A stretch of 43,137 nt of DNA, from positions 1 through 43,137 of the forward strand of contig CADCTP010000128.1 in the NCBI GenBank assembly GCA_902805565.1, written 5' to 3'. This DNA is from an uncultured Mycobacteriales bacterium (GTDB lineage Bacteria > Actinomycetota > Actinomycetes > Mycobacteriales > CADCTP01). The notes beneath the pieces were generated by a model. The model ran no database searches and had not been told where the DNA came from. It saw nothing but the letters and a program-made list of their open reading frames with translations. A program made the translations under genes and the position numbers. Positions 13,769-24,424 of this stretch are shown one piece after another (the stretch's first letter is position 1; the number at the start of each line of letters is the position of its first letter).

Positions 13769-13831
13769 CCGGGCCGGTCGCGGTGGGTGGTCGGTGACGG
13801 CCCGCCCTTGCCGTACGGGGACCGGGGCGGA

Positions 13832-13837
13832 CACCAT
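13832..13837 (+). promoter_or_regulatory. -10-like CACCAT, 6 nt before LytS start
   Basis: CACCAT ends exactly 6 nt before GTG 13844. This supports the shorter N-terminus of the kinase and leaderless transcription. Confidence 0.4.
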
Positions 13838-13843
13838 GCGGGG

Positions 13844-15019
13844 GTGCGCGCGGCCTGGGTAGTGGCGGTGCTGCTGCTGGTCGCGGGGCTGTCCGTGTGG
13901 GCGGTCGGCCGGGTCCGGTCGCGGCGTCGGTTCGCCACGTCCGCCGAGCGGGTCACCTTCGAGACCTTGCACACCGCGTCGCTGGCCGCCCCGCCGCTGC
14001 GGCTGGGGCTCACCGAGACCTCTGCCGGCAAGTCGGCCCGGCACCTGCGCACCCTGCTCGGCACCCCGGCCATCGCGATCTCCGACACCGAGCGGTCGCT
14101 GGTCTGGGAGGGCCCGGGGGACCACCACGGCGACCGGCTCTGGCGGGCCGCCGCGGACGGGCCGCTGGCCACCGGCCGGCCGGTCGTCGTCCCGCCCGAG
14201 GACCTGCTCTGCGCGGACCCGATGTGCCAGGTCCGCGGGGCGGTGGTCGTGCCGATCACGGTGGACGAGCGGACCGTCGGGTCGCTGGCCGCGGTCACCG
14301 CCACCGAGCCCGGGCCCGGGCTGGTGCAGGCCGCGCTGGAGACGGCGCGCTGGGTCTCCACCCAGCTGGAGCTGGCCGAGCTGGACCAGTCCAAGGCCCG
14401 GCTGGTGCGGGCCGAGGTGCGGGCGCTGCGGGCCCAGATCAGCCCGCACTTCGTCTACAACGCGCTCACCACGATCGCCTCGTTCGTCCGTACGGACCCG
14501 GAGCGGGCCCGCGAGCTGCTGCTGGAGTTCGCGGACTTCACCCGCTACTCGTTCCGGTCGCACGGCGAGTTCACCACCCTGGCCGAGGAGCTGCGCTCGA
14601 TCGACCGCTACCTGACCCTGGAGCGGGCCCGGTTCGGCGACCGGCTGGAGGTACGGCTGCAGATCGCGCCGGAGGTGCTGCCGGTCGCGGTGCCGTTCCT
14701 CGGGGTGCAGCCGCTGGTGGAGAACGCCGTCCGGCACGGCCTGGCGGCCAAGACCGGGGTCGGCACGGTGTCGATCGTGGCCGAGGACGCCGGGACGGCC
14801 TGCCTGATCAGCGTCGAGGACGACGGCGTCGGGATGGACCCGGACATCCTGCGGCAGCGGGCCGAGGGCGGCGGGCACGTCGGGCTGGGCAACATCGACG
14901 ACCGGCTGCGGTCGGTGTTCGGCGACGAGTTCGGCCTGGTGGTCGAGACCGCGCCCGGTGCGGGGACCAAGGTCAGCATGCGGATCCCGAAGTTCCACGC
15001 CGACGTGCGGGCGTCGTGA
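13844..15019 (+). CDS. LytS/YehU-type sensor histidine kinase
   Basis: 391 residues. A single N-terminal membrane helix (about 4-22) is followed by a GAF-like domain (about 35-165) that contains two Cys in LLCADPMCQVRG. The His_kinase domain has phosphoacceptor His202 in RAQISPHFVYNALTTI, and the ATPase domain has VENAVRHGL, EDDGVGM and GLGNIDDRL. The Cys pair could bind metal or sense redox, but this is inference. It stands 20 bp before its LytTR partner. In E. coli such kinases (BtsS, YpdA) sense pyruvate and control transporters. Two solute:sodium symporter modules lie 5-9 kb downstream, one carrying a LytTR-like site, and are plausible targets. Confidence 0.93.
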   Translation: MRAAWVVAVLLLVAGLSVWAVGRVRSRRRFATSAERVTFETLHTASLAAPPLRLGLTETSAGKSARHLRTLLGTPAIAISDTERSLVWEGPGDHHGDRLWRAAADGPLATGRPVVVPPEDLLCADPMCQVRGAVVVPITVDERTVGSLAAVTATEPGPGLVQAALETARWVSTQLELAELDQSKARLVRAEVRALRAQISPHFVYNALTTIASFVRTDPERARELLLEFADFTRYSFRSHGEFTTLAEELRSIDRYLTLERARFGDRLEVRLQIAPEVLPVAVPFLGVQPLVENAVRHGLAAKTGVGTVSIVAEDAGTACLISVEDDGVGMDPDILRQRAEGGGHVGLGNIDDRLRSVFGDEFGLVVETAPGAGTKVSMRIPKFHADVRAS

Positions 15020-15038: not shown

Positions 15039-15782
15039 GTGAGCAGACCGATGCGGGTGCTGGCCGTGGACGACGAGCCGCCGGCCCTGGACGAGCTGGG
15101 CTACCTGCTCGAGGCCGACCCGCGGGTGGCGTCGGTGCTGCGGGCCGGCGACGCCCCGGCGGCGCTGCGGCTGCTGCGGGACAGCGAGATCGACGCGGTG
15201 TTCCTGGACATCCGGATGCCGGGGATGGACGGCCTGGAGCTGGCCCGGGCGCTGCGCCGGCAGCCGGTGCCGCCGCCGGTCGTCTTCGTCACCGCGCACG
15301 ACGACCGGGCGGTGGACGCCTTCGACCTGGGCGCGGTCGACTACCTGCTCAAGCCGCTGCGGCCGGAGCGGCTGGCCGAGTCGCTGCGCCGGGTCTGCGC
15401 GGCCCGCACCACCCCGGACCCCGGGCCCAGCGACGACGACGTCATCCCGGTCGAGCTGGCCGGGCGGACCACGATGCTGCCCCGGGCCGACGTCCGCTGG
15501 GTCGAGGCCCAGGGCGACTACGCCCGGCTGCACACCGCGGAGACCTCGCACCTGATCCGGGTGCCGCTGTCGGTGCTGGCCGAACGCTGGGCCGACGCCG
15601 GCTTCGTCCGCATCCACCGGTCGTACCTGGTCTCGCTGCGGGACGTCCGCGAGCTGCGGCTGACCGGCTCCGGCTACGTCGTCCTCACCGGCGACCGCGA
15701 GCTGCCCGTCTCCCGCCGCCACACCCGCGAGCTCAAGGACCGCCTCATCCGCGCCACCAAGGCCGACTGGTCCCGCTCCTGA
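15039..15782 (+). CDS. LytTR-family response regulator
   Basis: 247 residues from GTG 15039. The receiver domain has VDDEPPAL, phosphoacceptor Asp57 in AVFLDIRMPGMDG, VTAHDDRAVDAFDLGAVDYL and the LKP Lys. The LytTR DNA-binding domain occupies about 140-245 (RWVEAQGDYARLHT, FVRIHRSYLVSL, LPVSRRHTRELKDRL). LytTR proteins bind two direct repeats of about 10 bp one face of the helix apart (21-22 bp period). Just such a repeat is found at 22311-22341 before the DUF485/ActP operon. It is co-transcribed with the LytS kinase. The adjacent AlbA-type gene is separately regulated. Confidence 0.94.
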   Translation: MSRPMRVLAVDDEPPALDELGYLLEADPRVASVLRAGDAPAALRLLRDSEIDAVFLDIRMPGMDGLELARALRRQPVPPPVVFVTAHDDRAVDAFDLGAVDYLLKPLRPERLAESLRRVCAARTTPDPGPSDDDVIPVELAGRTTMLPRADVRWVEAQGDYARLHTAETSHLIRVPLSVLAERWADAGFVRIHRSYLVSLRDVRELRLTGSGYVVLTGDRELPVSRRHTRELKDRLIRATKADWSRS

Positions 15783-15802: not shown

Positions 15803-15868
15803 GATCAATGTTGATCGGTTATGCCATACTTCTCCGATGATCGGTGGCGCCCGAAGATCTATGCCATA
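15803..15868 (+). promoter_or_regulatory. Operator-like repeats at the AlbA-type gene
   Basis: GATCAATGTTGATC (15803-15816) is an inverted repeat with perfect 6-bp arms. TATGCCATA occurs at 15820-15828 and again at 15860-15868, 40 bp apart. The first copy overlaps the -10-like CATACT (15825-15830), which lies 6 nt before ATG 15837. TGATCGGT also occurs twice. This AT-rich patch is unlike the flanking DNA and fits autoregulation. Confidence 0.5.
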
Positions 15869-17528
15869 TCCGCTGTTCCATCCCGAGGGTTCGGGCGACC
15901 TGCCGATGGCGATGACGTCGGAGGACTTCCGCGCCGCTTTTCCCGGCGAGACCGGACACCTGGAGTTCAAGCAGGGCCTGCCGGAGCACAAGGTCCAGGA
16001 GGCTGTCGTCGCCTTCTCGAACACTGCCGGCGGCGTCATCGTCCTCGGGGTGGCGCCCGACGGGAGTCCGCGTGGGCTGACCGTCGACGGGGAGTTCCTC
16101 GCCCGGGTCCACAGGGCGGTCGCCCAGGCCCGGGACCCCGGCCGGTACGAGGTGTTCGAGCTGGTGGTGGGCGACCGCGGGCTGGTGGTCCTCTCGGTCG
16201 CCCGCCGTCGGGAGGGCTTCGCCCAGACCACGGACGGGCGGGTCCTCGTCCGGCGCGGTGCCATGAACACGGCGCTGTTCGGGTCGGCGCTGGGGGAGTT
16301 CGTCGCGAGCCGCGTGCTCGGCCGGTTCGAGGCGACACCGACGGACATCCCGCTGTCCGGCGCCGCGCCGGAGCTGCTCGCCGACCTGGCGGCCGCCTGG
16401 GGCTGGCCACTCGACGACACGCTGACCGACCGACTTGTCGAACAGGGCCTCGTGGACGTCCGGGACGGCGACCGGTTGACCGTCGCGGGCGCCCTCTACC
16501 TCGTGCGTGAACCCCACCTGGCCCTCGGTAAGACCTACGTCGAGATCTTCCGGTACCGGGACCGCGGCACGGCCTACGACCGGCGGATCCTGATCACCGG
16601 ACCGCTCACCGACCAGGTGGCCGCGGCCACCGGGGCGATCGCGGACGAGCTCGGCAGCGACCTCGTCGTCCTGGGCGTACGACGGTACGACCTGCCCCGT
16701 CTCCCGGAGGGCGTGCTGCGGGAGGCCGTCGCGAATGCCGTCGCCCACCGCGTCTACGAGAACCGGCGCAGCGCCGTACGCGTCGAGATCCGGCCCGACA
16801 GCGTCACCATCACCTCGCCGGGCCCGCTGCCGGAGCCGGTCACCGTGGCCAACATCCGGGACCAGAACGCGGCCCGGAACATGAGCGTCATCGCGACCCT
16901 CCGGCGGTTCCGCCTCGCGGAGGATGCCGGCCGCGGTGTCGACCTCATGGAGGACGTCATGGCGGCGAACCTGCTCGACCCGCCGGAGTTCATCGACGAC
17001 GGGGCGTCGGTGACCGTTCGGCTCCGCCTGTCCACCACGGTCACGCCGGCCGAGCGGGCCTGGCTCCAGGAGGTCGAGCGTCGCGGTGAGATCCGCCCTC
17101 CCGACCGGGTCCTTCTCGTCCATGCGGCCCGAGGTGTGCCGCTGACGAACAGCTACGCCCGGGAGGTGCTGGGCGTCGACAGCGTCGACGCGCGCAGTTC
17201 GCTGCAGCGGCTGCGCGATGCCGACCTGTTGCGCCAGTCCGGCGAACGTGGTGGCGCCGTGTACTTCCTGTCGCCCGACCTGGCACCCCCGGCGGGTCTC
17301 CGGTTGGAGCCCGCCGAGCTCGACGCGCTGATCGTCTCCCTGGCGGACGAGGGTCCGCTCACCAATCAGGTGGTGCGCGACCGCACGGGCCTCGACCGGG
17401 CCAGGGCCCTCGCCGTCCTGACGACCCTGGTGGAAGAGGGACGGCTCGTCCGCCGGGGTGAGCGGCGGGGCTCCTGGTACGAGCGTCCCGCCGCGGAACC
17501 GGCGGGCCAGCGCAGGTTGTCCGACTGA
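15837..17528 (+). CDS. AlbA_2/Schlafen-type putative transcriptional regulator (RecG-like ATP-binding family)
   Basis: 563 residues. The AlbA_2 domain is seen at about 29-150 (GETGHLEFKQGLPE, VVAFSNTAGGVIVLGV). The HATPase_c_4-type region (about 280-400) has LREAVANAVAHRVYE and DAGRGVDLMEDVM. Two winged-helix-like segments end the protein (about 430-550). Proteins of this build are called transcriptional regulators or, historically, ATP-dependent helicase RecG-like, and helicase motifs are absent. Starts at ATG 15837, 15861 or 15906 are possible. 15837 is preferred because a -10-like element lies 6 nt upstream, but the second TATGCCATA repeat would then be inside the gene. Roles in gene control or defence are both conceivable. 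Confidence 0.82.
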   Translation: MIGGARRSMPYPLFHPEGSGDLPMAMTSEDFRAAFPGETGHLEFKQGLPEHKVQEAVVAFSNTAGGVIVLGVAPDGSPRGLTVDGEFLARVHRAVAQARDPGRYEVFELVVGDRGLVVLSVARRREGFAQTTDGRVLVRRGAMNTALFGSALGEFVASRVLGRFEATPTDIPLSGAAPELLADLAAAWGWPLDDTLTDRLVEQGLVDVRDGDRLTVAGALYLVREPHLALGKTYVEIFRYRDRGTAYDRRILITGPLTDQVAAATGAIADELGSDLVVLGVRRYDLPRLPEGVLREAVANAVAHRVYENRRSAVRVEIRPDSVTITSPGPLPEPVTVANIRDQNAARNMSVIATLRRFRLAEDAGRGVDLMEDVMAANLLDPPEFIDDGASVTVRLRLSTTVTPAERAWLQEVERRGEIRPPDRVLLVHAARGVPLTNSYAREVLGVDSVDARSSLQRLRDADLLRQSGERGGAVYFLSPDLAPPAGLRLEPAELDALIVSLADEGPLTNQVVRDRTGLDRARALAVLTTLVEEGRLVRRGERRGSWYERPAAEPAGQRRLSD

Positions 17529-17532
17529 CCGG

Positions 17533-18912
17533 TCAGGGGGTGAGGAGGACCGAGAGGAAGAGGGTGAGGAGCGCCTCGCGGGACGGGACGGGCAGGCCGT
17601 CCAGGGCCTTGTTGACCGCGGCCATCGACGGCCGGCCCGCGGGGTCGGCCAGGGACAGGCCGGAGGCGGCGAGCAGCCGCACGAAGCCGTCCTCGTCCAG
17701 GGTGGTCAGGTCGGCCGCGCCCAGCGCGTCGGCGGTCTGCGCGGACAGCACCACCGGGCCCCGCTCCCGGGCGGCGTCGGTCGCCGCGGCCAGGGCCGTG
17801 ACCAGGTCGTCGACGGTGGCCGGCGAGACGCCGTGCGAGGAGAAGTGCAGGGTGGGCGGCACGTCGCCGAGGGACAGCTGGACCTGGGCGTAGAAGCCGC
17901 GGTGCCGCAGCTCGTCGGCGACCACGAACACGTCCACGCCCGACCCGGCCACCGCGAGCAGGGTGGTGTCCGGGACCCCGAGCACCGCCAGGCCGTCGAT
18001 CGAGGAGACGCCCTTGACCAGGGTGTGCAGCGCGGACCGGGCGTCCAGGGCGAGCGTCCGGTAGCCGTCGAGGCCGACGTGCTCCAGCACCGCCCAGGCC
18101 GCGGCGAGCGGGCCGGCGGTCTTCGCCGACTGGGTGGTCGGGTTGAGCACCGGATACCCCGGCCACCCCGCGTACGCGAACCACGCCTTGCGGCGCAGCG
18201 CCCGGTCGGCGAACAGCAGCACCGACGCACCCTTGGGGGCGTACGCGTACTTGTGCAGGTCCACCGACAGCGACGTCACCCCCGGCACCCGCAGGTCGAA
18301 CGGCGGGGCGTCCGGCAGGAACGGCAGCACCCAGCCGCCGATGCAGGCGTCGACGTGGCAGAGCACGCCGCGGGCGGCGGCCAGCGCGGCGATCTCCGGG
18401 ACCGGGTCGACGGTCCCGGTCGGGTACGACGGCGCGGACGCCACCACCAGCACGGTCCGGTCGGTGATCGCGTCGGCCACCGCCGCCGGCACGGCCCGGA
18501 AGTCCGCGTCGACCGGCACCGGCACGACGGTCAGCCCGAAGTAGTGCGCCGCCTTGTGGAACGCCGGGTGCGCGGTCACCGGCAGCACGATCTCCGGGTC
18601 GCGCACGTCCCGGGCGTCCCGGGCCGCCTTGACCGCGAGCAGGCAGGACTCGGTGCCGCCGCTGGTGAAGATGCCGGCCGCCCCGCCGAGCAGCCCGGTC
18701 GCGGTGCGGACGACCGAGTTCTCCAGCGCCACCACCGACGGGAACGCGGTCGGGTCGAGCCCGTTGACGTCGAGCATCTCCGCGTACGCCCGGGCGCCGA
18801 CCTCGTGCGCCGAGTCGGAGCCGGAGTCGTAGACGTACGCCCAGGTGGTGCCGCCGCGGACCGGGAGGTCGGCGGCCCGCAGCGCGGTCAGCTCCGCGAA
18901 CAGGTCCCTCAT
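17533..18912 (-). CDS. PLP-dependent decarboxylase/lyase, sphingosine-1-phosphate lyase-like
   Basis: 459 residues of the group-II decarboxylase fold. PLP-binding features are TSGGTESCLLAV (83-94), Asp188 in HVDACIGGW and the Schiff-base Lys221 in SVDLHKYAYAPKGAS. The SVDLHKY-x-YAPKG form is typical of sphingosine-1-phosphate lyase rather than of glutamate or aromatic amino-acid decarboxylases, as is LENSVVRTATGLLGG. Unlike eukaryotic lyases there is no membrane anchor. The ATG overlaps the stop of the upstream transporter (ATGA), so the two form an operon on the minus strand. The substrate is unknown: phosphorylated long-chain base, a related phosphoamino alcohol or an amino acid. It converges on the AlbA-type gene with only 4 bp between stops. 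Confidence 0.85.
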   Translation of the reverse strand: MRDLFAELTALRAADLPVRGGTTWAYVYDSGSDSAHEVGARAYAEMLDVNGLDPTAFPSVVALENSVVRTATGLLGGAAGIFTSGGTESCLLAVKAARDARDVRDPEIVLPVTAHPAFHKAAHYFGLTVVPVPVDADFRAVPAAVADAITDRTVLVVASAPSYPTGTVDPVPEIAALAAARGVLCHVDACIGGWVLPFLPDAPPFDLRVPGVTSLSVDLHKYAYAPKGASVLLFADRALRRKAWFAYAGWPGYPVLNPTTQSAKTAGPLAAAWAVLEHVGLDGYRTLALDARSALHTLVKGVSSIDGLAVLGVPDTTLLAVAGSGVDVFVVADELRHRGFYAQVQLSLGDVPPTLHFSSHGVSPATVDDLVTALAAATDAARERGPVVLSAQTADALGAADLTTLDEDGFVRLLAASGLSLADPAGRPSMAAVNKALDGLPVPSREALLTLFLSVLLTP

Positions 18913-20234
18913 GCCGGCACCGTCACCGGCGCCGGGCCGACCTGCCGGGCGAACCGGGCCAGCAGCGGGAGGCTCACCAGCAACAGCACCGCGGGCAGCA
19001 CGGTCATCCCCACCAGGACTCCTGTCAGCGCGGACGACGGCTGCGTCACCCGCTCGTCGGCAGGTGACGACACGAACGACGTCACCGCGAGCACCAGAGC
19101 GTAGAGCGCGGGACCGGCCGCGGCCCCGACCACCTCGCCCGCCGTCCAGACCCCGGTCAGCGCGCCGGCCTGGCGCTGGCCGGTCCGGGCCTCGTCGTCG
19201 CTGACCGTGTCCGGCAGCAGCGAGATCGCCAGCAGCTGCATCGCGGCGTACCCGACGCCGAGCAGCACGCACTGCCCGACGACCAGCCAGACCTGCCCGG
19301 GCGAGCCGGTGAAAAGCATGGACAGGGTGACCAGCGCGTACCCGAGGGTGGCCACGAAGAGGCACGGCGCCTTGCCCCAGCGGCGCGCCGCCCGTACCCA
19401 CAGCGGCATCACCACGACCGACGGGGCGACCAGGGCCACGAAGAGCACCGACGTCCAGCCGTAGTCGTCCAGCCGGTACGTCGCCAGGTAGGGCGCGCCG
19501 GCCAGCATCACGTTCACCGCCAGCGACTGGAGCACCCAGGTCACCAGGAGCACCAGGAACGGCTTGTTGCCGCGGGCCAGCGCGAAGGACTCCCGCAGCC
19601 CCAACTGCCGGGCCGGCCGGGACCGCACCCAGCGGGTGCTCAGCGTCGCGGTGATCATGGACACCGCCAGCACCAGGCCGACGACCAGGCCCATCACCGC
19701 GTGCCCGGCCCGTCCGCCGCCGGCCAGCTCGGTCAGCGCCGGGGCCAGCCCGCCGCCGACGAGGATGCCGACGGTCATCAGCACGACCCGCCAGGACACG
19801 ATCCGGGTCCGGGCCTGCTTGTCGTCGGTCATCTCCGCCGGCAGCGCCACGTAGTTGACCTGGAAGGGCGAGTACGCCGTGGCGGCCAGCAGGAAGAACA
19901 GCGCCACCCACAGCCCGCCGGACACCGGCCCGTCGAACGGCACCGCGAACATCGCCAGGAACAGCACCGGCAGCCCGACCGCGCCGGCCATCAGGTACGG
20001 CGTACGGGACCCGCCGGCGGCCGCGGTCCGGTCCGCCCACGCCCCGACGATCGGGTTGAGCAGCGCGTCCCACGCCTTGGGCACGAGCAGGATCAGCCCG
20101 GCCCAGCCGGCGGCGACGCCCAGGGTGTCGGTGAGGAAGAACAGCAGCAGCAGGCCGGGCACGGCGCCGAAGATGCCGGTCCCGACCGACCCGACGCCGT
20201 AGCCGAACAGTCGGCCCCGGTCCAGCTGATCCAT
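18909..20234 (-). CDS. MFS_2/GPH-family cation symporter
   Basis: 441 residues with about 12 transmembrane helices. The N-terminal GYGVGSVGTGIFGAVPG and KAWDALLNPIVGAWADRT motifs identify the glycoside-pentoside-hexuronide (MFS_2) group, as does LPAEMTDDKQARTRIVSWR in the middle. This group includes sugar symporters and, in animals, the lysolipid and sphingosine-phosphate carriers MFSD2A/B. It is translationally coupled to the lyase-like gene downstream, so it probably moves that enzyme's substrate or product. TAGCTT lies exactly 6 nt before the ATG, predicting a leaderless operon transcript. The direction of transport and the substrate are open. Confidence 0.87.
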   Translation of the reverse strand: MDQLDRGRLFGYGVGSVGTGIFGAVPGLLLLFFLTDTLGVAAGWAGLILLVPKAWDALLNPIVGAWADRTAAAGGSRTPYLMAGAVGLPVLFLAMFAVPFDGPVSGGLWVALFFLLAATAYSPFQVNYVALPAEMTDDKQARTRIVSWRVVLMTVGILVGGGLAPALTELAGGGRAGHAVMGLVVGLVLAVSMITATLSTRWVRSRPARQLGLRESFALARGNKPFLVLLVTWVLQSLAVNVMLAGAPYLATYRLDDYGWTSVLFVALVAPSVVVMPLWVRAARRWGKAPCLFVATLGYALVTLSMLFTGSPGQVWLVVGQCVLLGVGYAAMQLLAISLLPDTVSDDEARTGQRQAGALTGVWTAGEVVGAAAGPALYALVLAVTSFVSSPADERVTQPSSALTGVLVGMTVLPAVLLLVSLPLLARFARQVGPAPVTVPA

Positions 20235-20393: not shown

Positions 20394-20765
20394 ATGGACG
20401 AGCAGCCGCCGCAGCGGGTACGGGTGGTGCTCGCCGGTGGCGAGCGCCGGCCGCGGCCGGAGGCGGCCGCCCGGGAGATCGAGGAGCAGACCCCGGTGGG
20501 CGAGGTGCTGGTCCGCGGCCTGATCCGCACCCAGCTCGCGCTGGCGCTGCGGGTGTCCCTGCTGGTGGGTCTCCTGTTCGGGGTCCAGCCGGTGCTGTTC
20601 GCCCTCTACCCGGGGGCGGCCCGGACCGAGGTCCTCGGCCTGCCGCTGCCCTGGCTGCTGCTGGGGCTGCTGGCCTACCCGGTCGTCTTCGGCATCGCCT
20701 GGGCGTACGTGCGGGCCGCGGAGCGCAACGAGCGGCACTTCACCGACCTGGTCAACCGGTCGTGA
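20394..20765 (+). CDS. Small two-helix membrane protein, likely accessory to the next symporter
   Basis: 123 residues. A hydrophilic N-terminus of about 45 residues is followed by two membrane helices (about 52-72 and 80-104) and a charged tail ERNERHFTDLVNRS. It is not clearly DUF485 by sequence, but size, two-helix topology and place directly before a solute:sodium symporter mirror the DUF485 protein of the second module. The gene ends 7 bp before the symporter GTG. CACTCT lies 7 nt before the ATG, fitting a leaderless start. Function unknown. It may be a small subunit that stabilises or tunes the symporter. Confidence 0.75.
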   Translation: MDEQPPQRVRVVLAGGERRPRPEAAAREIEEQTPVGEVLVRGLIRTQLALALRVSLLVGLLFGVQPVLFALYPGAARTEVLGLPLPWLLLGLLAYPVVFGIAWAYVRAAERNERHFTDLVNRS

Positions 20766-20772
20766 CCCGCCC

Positions 20773-22284
20773 GTGAGCGACGTGAGCCCGTACGCGGTCC
20801 CGGCGATCGTGCTGATCACGGTGGCCACCCTGGCCATCGGCGCCTTCGGCTACCGGATCTCCCGGAACACCTCCGACTTCCTGGTCGCCTCCCGGACGGT
20901 GAGCCCGCGGCTGAACGCCTCCGCGATCAGCGGCGAGTACCTGTCCGCCGCCAGCTTCCTCGGCGTCGCCGGGCTGATCATGACCTACGGCGTCGACATG
21001 CTCTGGTACCCGGTCGGCTTCACCGCCGGCTACCTGGCGATGCTGCTCTACGTCGCGGCGCCGCTGCGCAGGTCCGGGGCGTACACGCTGCCGGACTTCG
21101 CCCAGGCCCGGCTCCGCTCGACCTGGGTACGGGCGCTGGCCACCGGGTTCGTGGTGCTGATCGGCTGGCTCTACCTGGTGCCGCAGCTGCAGGGCGCCGG
21201 GCTGACCCTGTCCACGGTGACCGGGGCGCCGGCCTGGGTCGGGGCGGTCGTGGTGGGCGTGGTCGTCACGCTGAACGTCGCGGTGGGCGGGATGCGCAGC
21301 ATCACCTTCGTCCAGGCCTTCCAGTACTGGGTGAAGCTGACCGCGATCGCGTTCCCGGCGATGGTCCTGCTGCTGGTGTGGTTCCACCGGGACGGGGCGC
21401 CGCCGCCGCCCGCGCCGGCGGAGTGGGTGGTGCCGCTGGCCGGCCTGCCGGGGGAGCACCCGCTGTTCGCGACGTACTCGCTGATCCTGGCCACGTTCCT
21501 GGGCACCATGGGCCTGCCGCACGTGCTGGTCCGCTTCTACACCAACCCCGACGGCCGGGCCGCCCGCACCACGACCCTGGTCGTGCTGGGCATGCTCGGC
21601 GTCTTCTACCTCTTCCCGACCGTGTACGGCGCGCTGGGCCGGATCTACGTCCCGGAGCTGCTCGGCGAGGACAACGCCGACGCGGTGGTGCTGGTGCTGC
21701 CGGGCGCGGCCGTCGGCGGGCTGCCCGGCGACCTGCTGTCCGGGCTGGTCGCGGCGGGCGCGTTCGCCGCCTTCCTGTCCACCTCCAGCGGGCTGCTGGT
21801 GTCGGTGTCCGGGGTGCTGTCCACCGACGTGCTCGGCCGCTGGTCGGGCAGTCACGGCTCGGTCCGGGACTTCCGCCGCTCGGCGATGGTCGCCGGGATC
21901 GTCCCGCTCGTGCTGGCCCTGCAGGCCGGCGGCCTGTCGCTGTCCACGGTGGTGGGGCTGGCGTTCGCGGTGGCGGCGTCGACGTTCTGCCCGCTGCTGG
22001 TGCTCGGGATCTGGTGGCGCCGGCTGACCCCGGTCGGCGCCGGCGCCGGGCTGCTGGTCGGCGGCGGGCTGTCCGGGGCCGCGGTGCTGCTCACGGTGCT
22101 GGGCCCGCCCCTGGACGGCTGGCCGGGGGCGCTGCTGGCCCAGCCCGCGGCCTGGACCGTTCCGGCGGCGTTCGCGGTGATGGTGCTGGTGTCGCTGGCG
22201 ACCCCGGGCCGGGTGCCGGTCGACGTCGGCCGGACCATGGTCCAGCTGCACGCGCCCGAACGGCTCCGTCTGCCGCAGCGCTGA
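20773..22284 (+). CDS. Solute:sodium symporter (ActP/monocarboxylate type)
   Basis: 503 residues and about 13 membrane helices. SSS-family motifs are seen: SDFLVASRTVSPRLNA, SGEYLSAASFLGVAGLIM (about 55-72), VGGMRSITFVQAFQYWVK and TMGLPHVLVRFYT. The ISGEYLSAASFLG and GLPH-RFYT segments are those of acetate/pyruvate carriers (ActP, MctC). The GTG at 20773 lies 7 bp after the small membrane protein. A second, more ActP-like copy follows 0.5 kb downstream with its own regulatory region. The two may have different substrates or affinity. Which monocarboxylate is carried cannot be told. Confidence 0.9.
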   Translation: MSDVSPYAVPAIVLITVATLAIGAFGYRISRNTSDFLVASRTVSPRLNASAISGEYLSAASFLGVAGLIMTYGVDMLWYPVGFTAGYLAMLLYVAAPLRRSGAYTLPDFAQARLRSTWVRALATGFVVLIGWLYLVPQLQGAGLTLSTVTGAPAWVGAVVVGVVVTLNVAVGGMRSITFVQAFQYWVKLTAIAFPAMVLLLVWFHRDGAPPPPAPAEWVVPLAGLPGEHPLFATYSLILATFLGTMGLPHVLVRFYTNPDGRAARTTTLVVLGMLGVFYLFPTVYGALGRIYVPELLGEDNADAVVLVLPGAAVGGLPGDLLSGLVAAGAFAAFLSTSSGLLVSVSGVLSTDVLGRWSGSHGSVRDFRRSAMVAGIVPLVLALQAGGLSLSTVVGLAFAVAASTFCPLLVLGIWWRRLTPVGAGAGLLVGGGLSGAAVLLTVLGPPLDGWPGALLAQPAAWTVPAAFAVMVLVSLATPGRVPVDVGRTMVQLHAPERLRLPQR

Positions 22285-22297
22285 GCGCGACCCCGGC

Positions 22298-22311
22298 GTG
22301 ACCCGGGTCAC
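22298..22311. promoter_or_regulatory. Crp-like palindrome GTGACCCGGGTCAC
   Basis: A perfect 14-bp palindrome of the form GTGA-N6-TCAC, the core recognised by Crp/GlxR-type regulators. It directly abuts the LytTR-like repeat. A partial copy (ACCCGGGTCAC) lies at 22353-22363. It is upstream of the DUF485/ActP-like operon. Confidence 0.55.
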
Positions 22312-22341
22312 TCGGCGCACGCGACGTGCCGCTCGGCGCAC
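22311..22341. promoter_or_regulatory. LytTR-type direct repeat CTCGGCGCAC-N11-CTCGGCGCAC
   Basis: Two identical 10-bp direct repeats (22311-22320 and 22332-22341) with an 11-bp spacer give a 21-bp period, the arrangement bound by LytTR regulators such as YpdB. The repeats lie about 40 bp before the TACGGT -10 and 93 bp before the DUF485 start. Confidence 0.6.
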
Positions 22342-22380
22342 CCCGGCGGCGAACCCGGGTCACCGGACCGGCCCTCCTCC

Positions 22381-22386
22381 TACGGT
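22381..22386 (+). promoter_or_regulatory. -10 element TACGGT of the DUF485/actP-like operon
   Basis: It predicts a start near 22393 and a 41-nt leader that carries AGGAGG at 22418-22423, 10 nt before ATG 22434. No good -35 is present, as expected for an activator-dependent promoter. Confidence 0.5.
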
Positions 22387-22433: not shown

Positions 22434-22781
22434 ATGACAAGCAGCGAGACCCGTCCCGGCCAGGGGCAGCCCACGGCCGATGCGTACTCCCGGATGAACG
22501 CCGACCCGAGATTCGCCGACCTGCGCAAGCGGTTCCGCAACTTCGTGTTCCCGGCGACCGTGGCCTTCCTGGCCTGGTACCTGCTCTACGTGCTGCTGTC
22601 GGCCTTCGGTCGCGGCTTCATGGACACCAAGATCCTGGGCAACCTCAACGTCGCCTTCTTCTTCGGGATCCTCCAGTTCGTGTCCACCTTCGGGATCGCG
22701 ATCCTCTACTCGCGGTACGCGGACGACAAGCTGGACCCGGTCTCGTCCGACCTGCGCAACGAGCTGGAGGGCCGGCGGTGA
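22434..22781 (+). CDS. DUF485-domain membrane protein
   Basis: 115 residues. The DUF485 core DPRFADLRKRFRNFVFPATV (about 23-42), two membrane helices (about 37-57 and 71-92) and YSRYADDKLDPVSSDLRNEL at the end are typical. DUF485 genes regularly precede acetate/monocarboxylate symporters (yjcH-actP in E. coli, the cg0952-mctC pair in Corynebacterium), and their products are presumed accessory subunits. The stop overlaps the symporter GTG (GTGA), so the two are translationally coupled. The AGGAGG ribosome-binding site is strong. Regulation probably involves the upstream LytTR-like repeat and Crp-like palindrome. Confidence 0.94.
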   Translation: MTSSETRPGQGQPTADAYSRMNADPRFADLRKRFRNFVFPATVAFLAWYLLYVLLSAFGRGFMDTKILGNLNVAFFFGILQFVSTFGIAILYSRYADDKLDPVSSDLRNELEGRR

Positions 22782-24424
22782 ACGACCTGACCATCCTCGC
22801 CGCGAGCGAGGCCACCCGGCGCACCCTGACGCTGGGCCTCTTCGCGGTCTTCATCGCGGTGACGCTCTACATCACGCTGTGGGCGAGCCGGCAGAACAAG
22901 ACGGCCTCGGACTTCTACGACGGCGGCCGGTCGTTCTCCGCTGTGCAGAACGGGTTCGCCATCGGCGGCGACTACATGTCGGCGGCGTCGTTCCTCGGGA
23001 TCGCCGGCATCATCGCCCTGTACGGCTACGACGGCTTCCTCTACTCGATCGGCTTCCTGGTCGCCTGGCTGGTCGCGCTGCTGCTCGTCGCCGAGCTGCT
23101 GCGGAACTCCGGCCGCTACACGATGGGCGACGTGCTGGCGTTCCGGATGCGGCAGCGCCCGGTCCGCACCGCCGCCGGTGTCTCCACCATCACCGTGTCG
23201 ATCTTCTACCTGATCGCGCAGATGGTCGGCGCCGGCTCGCTCGTCGCGCTGCTGCTCGGCATCGGCAAGGGCGAGGAGTTCCTCGGCCTGTCCCAGGGCG
23301 CCGCGAAGAACGTCACGGTCGTCATCGTCGGCGCGCTCATGATCACGTACGTGATCGTCGGCGGCATGCGCGGCACGACCTGGGTGCAGATCGTCAAGGC
23401 CGGCCTGCTGATGACCGGCGCGACGCTGATGACGATCTTCGTCATGGTGAAGTTCAACTTCAACCCGTCCTCGCTGCTGGGCTCCGCGGCCACCGAGAGC
23501 GGCAAGGGCGACGCCTTCCTCAACCCGGGCCTGCGGTACGGCGCCGGGGACTGGAAGACCAAGGTCGACCTGATCAGCCTGGGCCTGGCCCTGGTGCTCG
23601 GCACCGCCGGCCTGCCGCACATCCTGATCCGCTTCTACACCGTGCCGACGGCCAAGGACGCCCGCCGCTCGGTGCAGTGGGCGATCGGCATCATCGGCTC
23701 GTTCTACCTCCTCACGCTGGCCCTCGGCTTCGGTGCCGCGGCGCTGGTCGGCAGCGACGCCATCCGGGCGCAGAACCCGGGCGGCAACACCGCGGCCCCA
23801 CAGTTGGCGGAGGAGCTGGGCGGCGGCGCCGGCTCGCTGGGCGGGGCGATCTTCCTGGCCTTCATCGCCTCGGTGGCGTTCGCGACGATCCTGGCGGTGG
23901 TGGCCGGCCTGACGCTGGCGTCGTCGTCCTCCGTGGCGCACGACGTCTACGCCAACGTCATCCGCAAGGGCGACGTCGACGAGCGGTCCGAGGTCCGGGT
24001 GGCCCGGCTGGCGGCGATCGTGATCGGTGCGGTCGCGATCGTGTTGTCCATCTTCGCCCAGAACCTGAACGTGGCGTTCCTGGTCGCATTGGCCTTCGCG
24101 GTCGCCGCGTCCGGAAACCTGCCGGCGATCCTCTACAGCCTGTTCTGGCGGAAGTTCAACACGCAGGGTGCGACCTGGGCCATCTACGGCGGTCTCGGGG
24201 TGGCGCTGTTCCTGGTGATCTTCTCGCCGGTGGTCTCCGGCAGCCCGACGGCGATGATCAGCGACCGGGACTTCTCCTGGTTCCCGCTGGAGAACCCCGG
24301 GATCATCTCCATCCCGGCCGGCTTCTTCTTCGGCTGGCTCGGCACCGTCCTGTCGAAGGAGCGGGACGACGCCAAGTACGACGAGCTCGAGGTCAGGTCG
24401 CTGACCGGAGCCGGGGCGCACTAG
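22778..24424 (+). CDS. actP: Cation:acetate (monocarboxylate) symporter, ActP-like
   Basis: 548 residues and about 13-14 membrane helices from GTG 22778. ActP/MctC features are SDFYDGGRSFSAVQNGFAIG, GDYMSAASFLGIAGIIALYG, VGGMRGTTWVQIVKA and AGLPHILIRFYTVPTAKDARRS. GDYMSAASFLG and the RFYTVPTAKDARRS segment are the strongest markers for acetate/pyruvate/propionate carriers. With the DUF485 protein it forms one operon, ended by a hairpin 33 nt after the stop. The LytS/LytTR system in the window is the best candidate regulator, with catabolite control through the Crp-like site. The exact substrate is not proven. Confidence 0.94.
   Translation: MNDLTILAASEATRRTLTLGLFAVFIAVTLYITLWASRQNKTASDFYDGGRSFSAVQNGFAIGGDYMSAASFLGIAGIIALYGYDGFLYSIGFLVAWLVALLLVAELLRNSGRYTMGDVLAFRMRQRPVRTAAGVSTITVSIFYLIAQMVGAGSLVALLLGIGKGEEFLGLSQGAAKNVTVVIVGALMITYVIVGGMRGTTWVQIVKAGLLMTGATLMTIFVMVKFNFNPSSLLGSAATESGKGDAFLNPGLRYGAGDWKTKVDLISLGLALVLGTAGLPHILIRFYTVPTAKDARRSVQWAIGIIGSFYLLTLALGFGAAALVGSDAIRAQNPGGNTAAPQLAEELGGGAGSLGGAIFLAFIASVAFATILAVVAGLTLASSSSVAHDVYANVIRKGDVDERSEVRVARLAAIVIGAVAIVLSIFAQNLNVAFLVALAFAVAASGNLPAILYSLFWRKFNTQGATWAIYGGLGVALFLVIFSPVVSGSPTAMISDRDFSWFPLENPGIISIPAGFFFGWLGTVLSKERDDAKYDELEVRSLTGAGAH

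Follow-up and report, generated by a model that had tools for sequence, protein, structure and literature searches.

LytTR regulators and carboxylate uptake

LytTR-type response regulators bind operators made of two direct (or inverted) repeats, each 9-11 bp long and separated by a spacer of 11-13 bp (PMC4847170). Control of carboxylate uptake by LytS/LytTR pairs has been described in enterobacteria. In the YpdAB (PyrSR)-yhjX system of E. coli, a LytTR regulator acts on a carboxylate-transporter gene, and the YpdB operator at yhjX is a pair of identical 10-bp direct repeats on either side of an 11-bp spacer (GGCATTTCAT, PMC4847170). In the second E. coli example, the LytS/LytTR pair BtsSR switches on a transporter gene, btsT, which encodes a pyruvate transporter and whose expression requires both BtsR and cAMP-CRP (PMC10653868). 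In rhizobia, the two-component systems RpuSR or MctSR control the DUF3311-mctP operon for a pyruvate/monocarboxylate permease, in which a DUF3311 gene is combined with that of an SSS permease (PMC9100948).

The locus considered here lies in an uncultured Mycobacteriales bacterium (assembly GCA_902805565.1, contig CADCTP010000128.1), and the window is the whole stretch of 43,137 nucleotides that was analysed. A first-pass annotation, made from the letters alone, had placed a LytTR-type operator before a DUF485/actP-like operon and a LytS/LytTR pair upstream of it, and had predicted a carboxylate-sensing circuit. As judged from sequence comparison, the repeat very probably serves as the binding site for the two-component regulator encoded nearby. 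It is likely, with rather high confidence, that the LytTR regulator would activate DUF485-mctC from this operator, with CRP as a second input, within a regulon of at least two operons.

The repeat and its promoter

Two identical copies of CTCGGCGCAC, separated by 11 bp (22321-22331), lie between a symporter gene and the DUF485 gene (Table 1), exactly where the annotation had put a perfect repeat. The 10-N11-10 arrangement is that of the YpdB site, as had also been claimed, and agrees in repeat length and spacer with LytTR-type operators (PMC4847170). With up to three mismatches allowed, the window contains 3 repeat matches against 0.10 expected from dinucleotide shuffling, and only 22311-22341 has no mismatch. 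The genome scan for the 10-N11-10 motif that the annotation had proposed found this to be the sole exact copy in 4.64 Mb. A one-mismatch match (C165) falls within a short coding frame with no transporter downstream and a two-mismatch match precedes no transporter; these candidates, on C165 and C187, were set aside as further sites.

Table 1. Coordinates of the regulatory elements and genes discussed, numbered within the window
Feature	Position	Strand	Basis or remark
LytS-like His_kinase-family sensor kinase with GAF; start codon uncertain	13787-15019	+	PF06580, PF02518, PF01590
LytTR response regulator, proposed binder of the repeat	15039-15782	+	PF00072, PF04397
DUF485-like small protein, SSS2 partner	20394-20765	+	PF04341, 8e-5, below curated cut-off; synteny
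Second SSS symporter (SSS2), constant neighbour of the LytTR gene	20773-22284	+	PF00474; synteny
CRP/GlxR-type palindrome GTGACCCGGGTCAC (GTG-N8-CAC)	22298-22311		one base shared with half-site A
Putative LytTR half-site A, CTCGGCGCAC	22311-22320	+	same letters in sister species (L012)
Putative LytTR half-site B, CTCGGCGCAC	22332-22341	+	conserved CCG (22329-22331) just before
-10-like hexamer TACGGT	22381-22386	+	39 bp after half-site B
DUF485 small membrane protein, first gene of the operon	22434-22781	+	PF04341, 4.6e-30
mctC, monocarboxylic acid symporter (SSS family)	22778-24424	+	NF058657, 840 bits

The position upstream of a -10 element is likewise borne out by the hexamer TACGGT. For spacing, 42 motif-bearing promoters were examined, and every TA...T hexamer located 20-75 bp beyond half-site B was included. 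Distances lie at 38-39, 49-50 and 59-61 bp, with three exceptions (47, 51 and 71), which gives a Rayleigh resultant of 0.93 at a 10.5-bp period (n=40), and 0.88 (p 5e-7) when one value is kept per family and distance. In the DUF3311 promoters of family f15 the distance is always 40. With distances phased in this way, the operator is kept on the same helical face with respect to RNA polymerase, which is what an activator site would show.

The CRP/GlxR-type palindrome near the promoter follows the pattern GTG-N8-CAC, the reported CRP/GlxR consensus of actinobacteria as quoted in PMC10033298. An exact GTG-N8-CAC occurs in 33 of the 42 motif-bearing promoters against 3.1 expected from shuffles, most commonly starting 13 bases before half-site A (-13), which is the window's own offset. 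It starts at +48 to +50 in promoters of Rhodococcus, Nocardia, Gordonia and Hoyosella, six helical turns from the -13 offset, and at -24/-25 in Saccharothrix and Kibdelosporangium; in DUF3311 promoters its end lies about 7 bp upstream of the TA...T hexamer. A CRP close to that of M. tuberculosis (structure matches at E 1e-105) is encoded in the genome and is a candidate for binding at 22298-22311.

Another short duplication, ACCCGGGTCAC, is present at 22301-22311 and 22353-22363, 52 bp apart; its second copy spans the expected -35 region and is absent from the sister species. A reading of the region as a hairpin was rejected, as the single strand folds only slightly better than shuffled sequence (z -2.4) and the fold derives from this second, non-conserved copy.

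The two-component pair and its gene cluster

The regulator combines a CheY-like receiver with a LytTR domain, the composition of a LytS/LytTR response regulator, and scores 150 bits against the BtsR equivalog model PRK11697, below its cut-off of 246. A LytTR profile search of the genome, which is 96.5% complete, returned this one protein only, which makes it the sole visible candidate binder if the repeat is a LytTR operator. In the kinase, GAF, His_kinase and HATPase_c domains were found and no 5TMR_LYT domain was detected; the pair works like a LytS system, yet its sensor is not a receptor of the LytS/BtsS type. The label "carboxylate-sensing" is therefore unsupported as worded in the annotation, and a carboxylate signal would be suggested by the target genes only. 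The pair also offers a way into the kind of signal perceived by a LytS-like kinase in which no receptor domain was detected. Autoregulation was considered and dropped: at a score of at least 18, the named loci have no site immediately upstream of the genes for the kinase, LytTR or SSS2.

The pair ends at 15782, consistent with the annotated distance of 6.5 kb upstream of the operon, and the linkage of the LytTR gene to its proposed target is syntenic across actinobacteria. Named genomes were scanned with an alignment of the regulator, and the order kinase - LytTR - small DUF485-like protein - SSS2 - DUF485 - MctC was found in Rhodococcus, Nocardia, Gordonia, Mycolicibacterium, Hoyosella, Saccharothrix, Actinomadura, Actinoplanes and others. 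Wherever enough sequence was available (34 named actinobacterial loci), SSS2 comes after LytTR, and 25 of these loci also contain DUF485/MctC. The DUF485-like gene and SSS2 (20394-22284) are the most constant neighbours of LytTR, even where mctC lies elsewhere, and their products may be a co-sensor or a second transporter.

In the window, three unrelated genes (15837-20234) separate LytTR from its usual partner and split the usual cluster. They encode a Schlafen/AlbA_2 + HATPase_c_4 protein and, on the minus strand, a PLP-dependent decarboxylase/aminotransferase-like protein and an MFS_2 sugar transporter; the corresponding gap in the sister genome is shorter, about 1.9 kb. The Streptomyces cluster runs LytTR - DUF485-like - SSS2 - kinase, without mctC nearby. 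Three such clusters (L102, L103, L107) have no site at threshold in the retrieved DNA, mctC being located elsewhere. This order is compatible with SCO1220-SCO1217 of S. coelicolor, a candidate match; PMC9739842, the source of the gene numbers, lists no function for the LytTR gene SCO1220.

Conservation of the putative operator with LytTR genes

In the sole other genome of the genus compared (G001), both half-sites upstream of the orthologous operon are letter-identical, in contrast to the spacer and flanks. Across wider distances, upstream regions were scored with the consensus yTCgnCGCAs-N8-CCG-yTCgnCGCAs (21 scored positions), read from the window's relatives, against dinucleotide shuffles, and a region was called positive at a shuffle p of at most 0.05. 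The consensus was written after part of the relatives had been viewed; the named genomes and the scan of 397 genomes represent new loci.

The first-pass annotation had made its proposal depend on retention of the repeat upstream of orthologous operons with the pair still close by. The hypothesis survived this comparison: the motif exceeds shuffled background in 22 of 25 DUF485 promoters with an adjacent LytTR gene, against 2 of 17 DUF485 genes with no LytTR nearby (Fisher p 9e-7, although the genomes are related and the counts therefore do not represent independent events). Among DUF485 paralogues distant from LytTR, 2 of 6 were positive, marginally (L039, L225). In genomes lacking the LytTR ortholog the motif is found in 0 of 11 DUF485 promoters, and these 11 genomes have no LytTR domain at all. 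An independent scan of named genomes, outside the building of the consensus, found the motif in 18 of 24. The contrast holds within a genus, where G008 and G033 carry the motif and G042 lacks both LytTR and motif, and within a family (G016 against G028, G038, G047 and G056). LytTR-adjacent promoters without a clear site are L026, L082, L086, L100 and L137.

In the f14 promoters L024, L028, L031 and L036, three successive words of the CTCGTCG/TTCGTCG type are present, the third directly after half-site B, which suggests an extended operator.

Probable target operons

The coordinates given earlier for the DUF485-symporter gene pair hold; the name "ActP-like" is better replaced by MctC, as the symporter scores 840 bits against the NCBIfam MctC equivalog cut-off of 670. 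Target specificity was addressed with a relaxed pattern in 397 genomes of the order, which gave 62 matches against 2 for a reversed control pattern; exact-pattern matches are concentrated in one family, f15. All 25 newly inspected loci (L160-L184) precede either DUF485-mctC or DUF3311 with an SSS permease (mctP). One relaxed match, G026:C1:981479, lies before small non-transport genes and was taken as chance.

The organism's own DUF3311-SSS operon carries an imperfect site, CTCGCCGCGC-N11-TCCGTCGCGG, which scores 18/21 and is located on the reverse strand at about 1600-1660 of its contig (L195, G000:C138), with a CRP-type sequence, GTGTGATCCACACC, beside it. Relatives in f12 (L209-L211) have a weaker repeat at the same DUF3311 position and several other relatives have no repeat before this operon, so inclusion of this operon in the regulon is less secure beyond f15. 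The regulon thus probably comprises at least two symporter operons, DUF485-mctC and DUF3311-mctP.

Proposed mechanism and alternative explanations

In the favoured model, the kinase, activated by some signal, would phosphorylate the LytTR regulator, which would bind as two subunits to half-sites A and B on one face of the DNA. From there, an integral number of helical turns before the -10, it would activate DUF485-mctC rather than repress it, and the product would take up short monocarboxylates; DUF3311-mctP would probably be activated likewise. CRP would add general carbon-status control. With a CRP-type site that overlaps half-site A, the promoter would integrate two inputs, and the circuit would probably read a specific signal through LytSR together with general carbon status through CRP. 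Conservation, fixed phasing and the usual CRP-type neighbour point to a shared actinobacterial switch for the uptake of short organic acids.

A functionless duplication in GC-rich DNA, arisen by chance or mutation, is highly improbable as an explanation of the repeat. The surroundings are GC-rich and contain a further local duplication, ACCCGGGTCAC, but a chance origin is contradicted by the 0.10 matches expected at three mismatches or fewer, by conservation across the sister species and distant families, and by the phasing. It is also unlikely that another regulator (for example of the LuxR, MerR/BldC or RamA type) binds the repeat and that the LytTR pair is merely syntenic. BldC is among the proteins that bind direct repeats, according to PMC5859096; against this proposal, the motif comes and goes with the LytTR gene among genomes, also within single families, and the 10-N11-10 geometry is that of LytTR operators. 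Conservation, co-occurrence with the LytTR gene and YpdB-like geometry together support the LytTR-type operator interpretation.

Within the LytTR-operator interpretation, the relationship with CRP could take another form, in which the two proteins antagonise each other and CRP, bound over half-site A or close to the -10 as in the DUF3311 operons, blocks LytTR or RNA polymerase. This is conceivable, though doubtful. It would fit the one-base overlap at half-site A and the DUF3311 promoters, where the CRP-type site occupies a position typical of repressors; it fits less well with the analogous E. coli btsT promoter, which needs both BtsR and CRP (PMC10653868), and with the -13 offset, which is helically in phase with +48 to +50 and suits side-by-side binding. 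A more elaborate proposal, tentative and rather less probable still, is a widespread actinobacterial two-input switch for the SSS monocarboxylate symporters of the cell: LytTR and CRP would stand in fixed helical register on one short operator, the kinase would lack a membrane receptor domain, and SSS2 with its DUF485-like partner would serve as a separate membrane sensor. SSS2 is a candidate co-sensor because it is constantly linked to the regulator and by analogy with CrbS and RpuS (PMC5715377, PMC9100948); hypothetically, the arrangement would be a split version of these SLC5-fused kinases.

Comparison with known systems

Compared with YpdAB-yhjX, the locus differs in half-site sequence, in its SSS-type targets instead of the yhjX transporter, in the lack of a detected 5TMR_LYT domain in the kinase, and in the CRP-type site that overlaps the operator. 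The BtsSR-btsT system differs in that BtsS senses through a 7-TM receptor domain, none of which was detected here, and in that BtsT is a CstA-family carrier, unrelated to the SSS transporters targeted here; helical phasing and LytTR-CRP overlap at the present locus are known from sequence only. The target transporter family is shared with Corynebacterium glutamicum, whose cg0952-mctC is presumably the same DUF485-mctC gene pair. There, mctC is controlled by other regulators, RamA and RamB, and C. glutamicum, used as a control in the LytTR profile search, gave no LytTR match. The rhizobial systems differ in their regulatory proteins, as RpuR is LuxR-type and RpuS an SLC5/STAC kinase, whereas the candidate here is a LytTR regulator.

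Both the operator geometry and the principle that LytTR proteins control carboxylate uptake are thus already known. The actinobacterial regulon, its consensus, the CRP coupling and the phasing are apparently undescribed, as no target, operator or function for an actinobacterial LytS/LytTR pair was found in the literature searched, which left subscription papers mostly outside. Set beside the enterobacterial systems, the locus offers an operator consensus, a candidate regulator and two probable target operons that are testable in Rhodococcus, Mycolicibacterium or Micromonospora, and probably couples the system to CRP; the sharing of DNA by a LytTR regulator and CRP can be addressed cleanly here.
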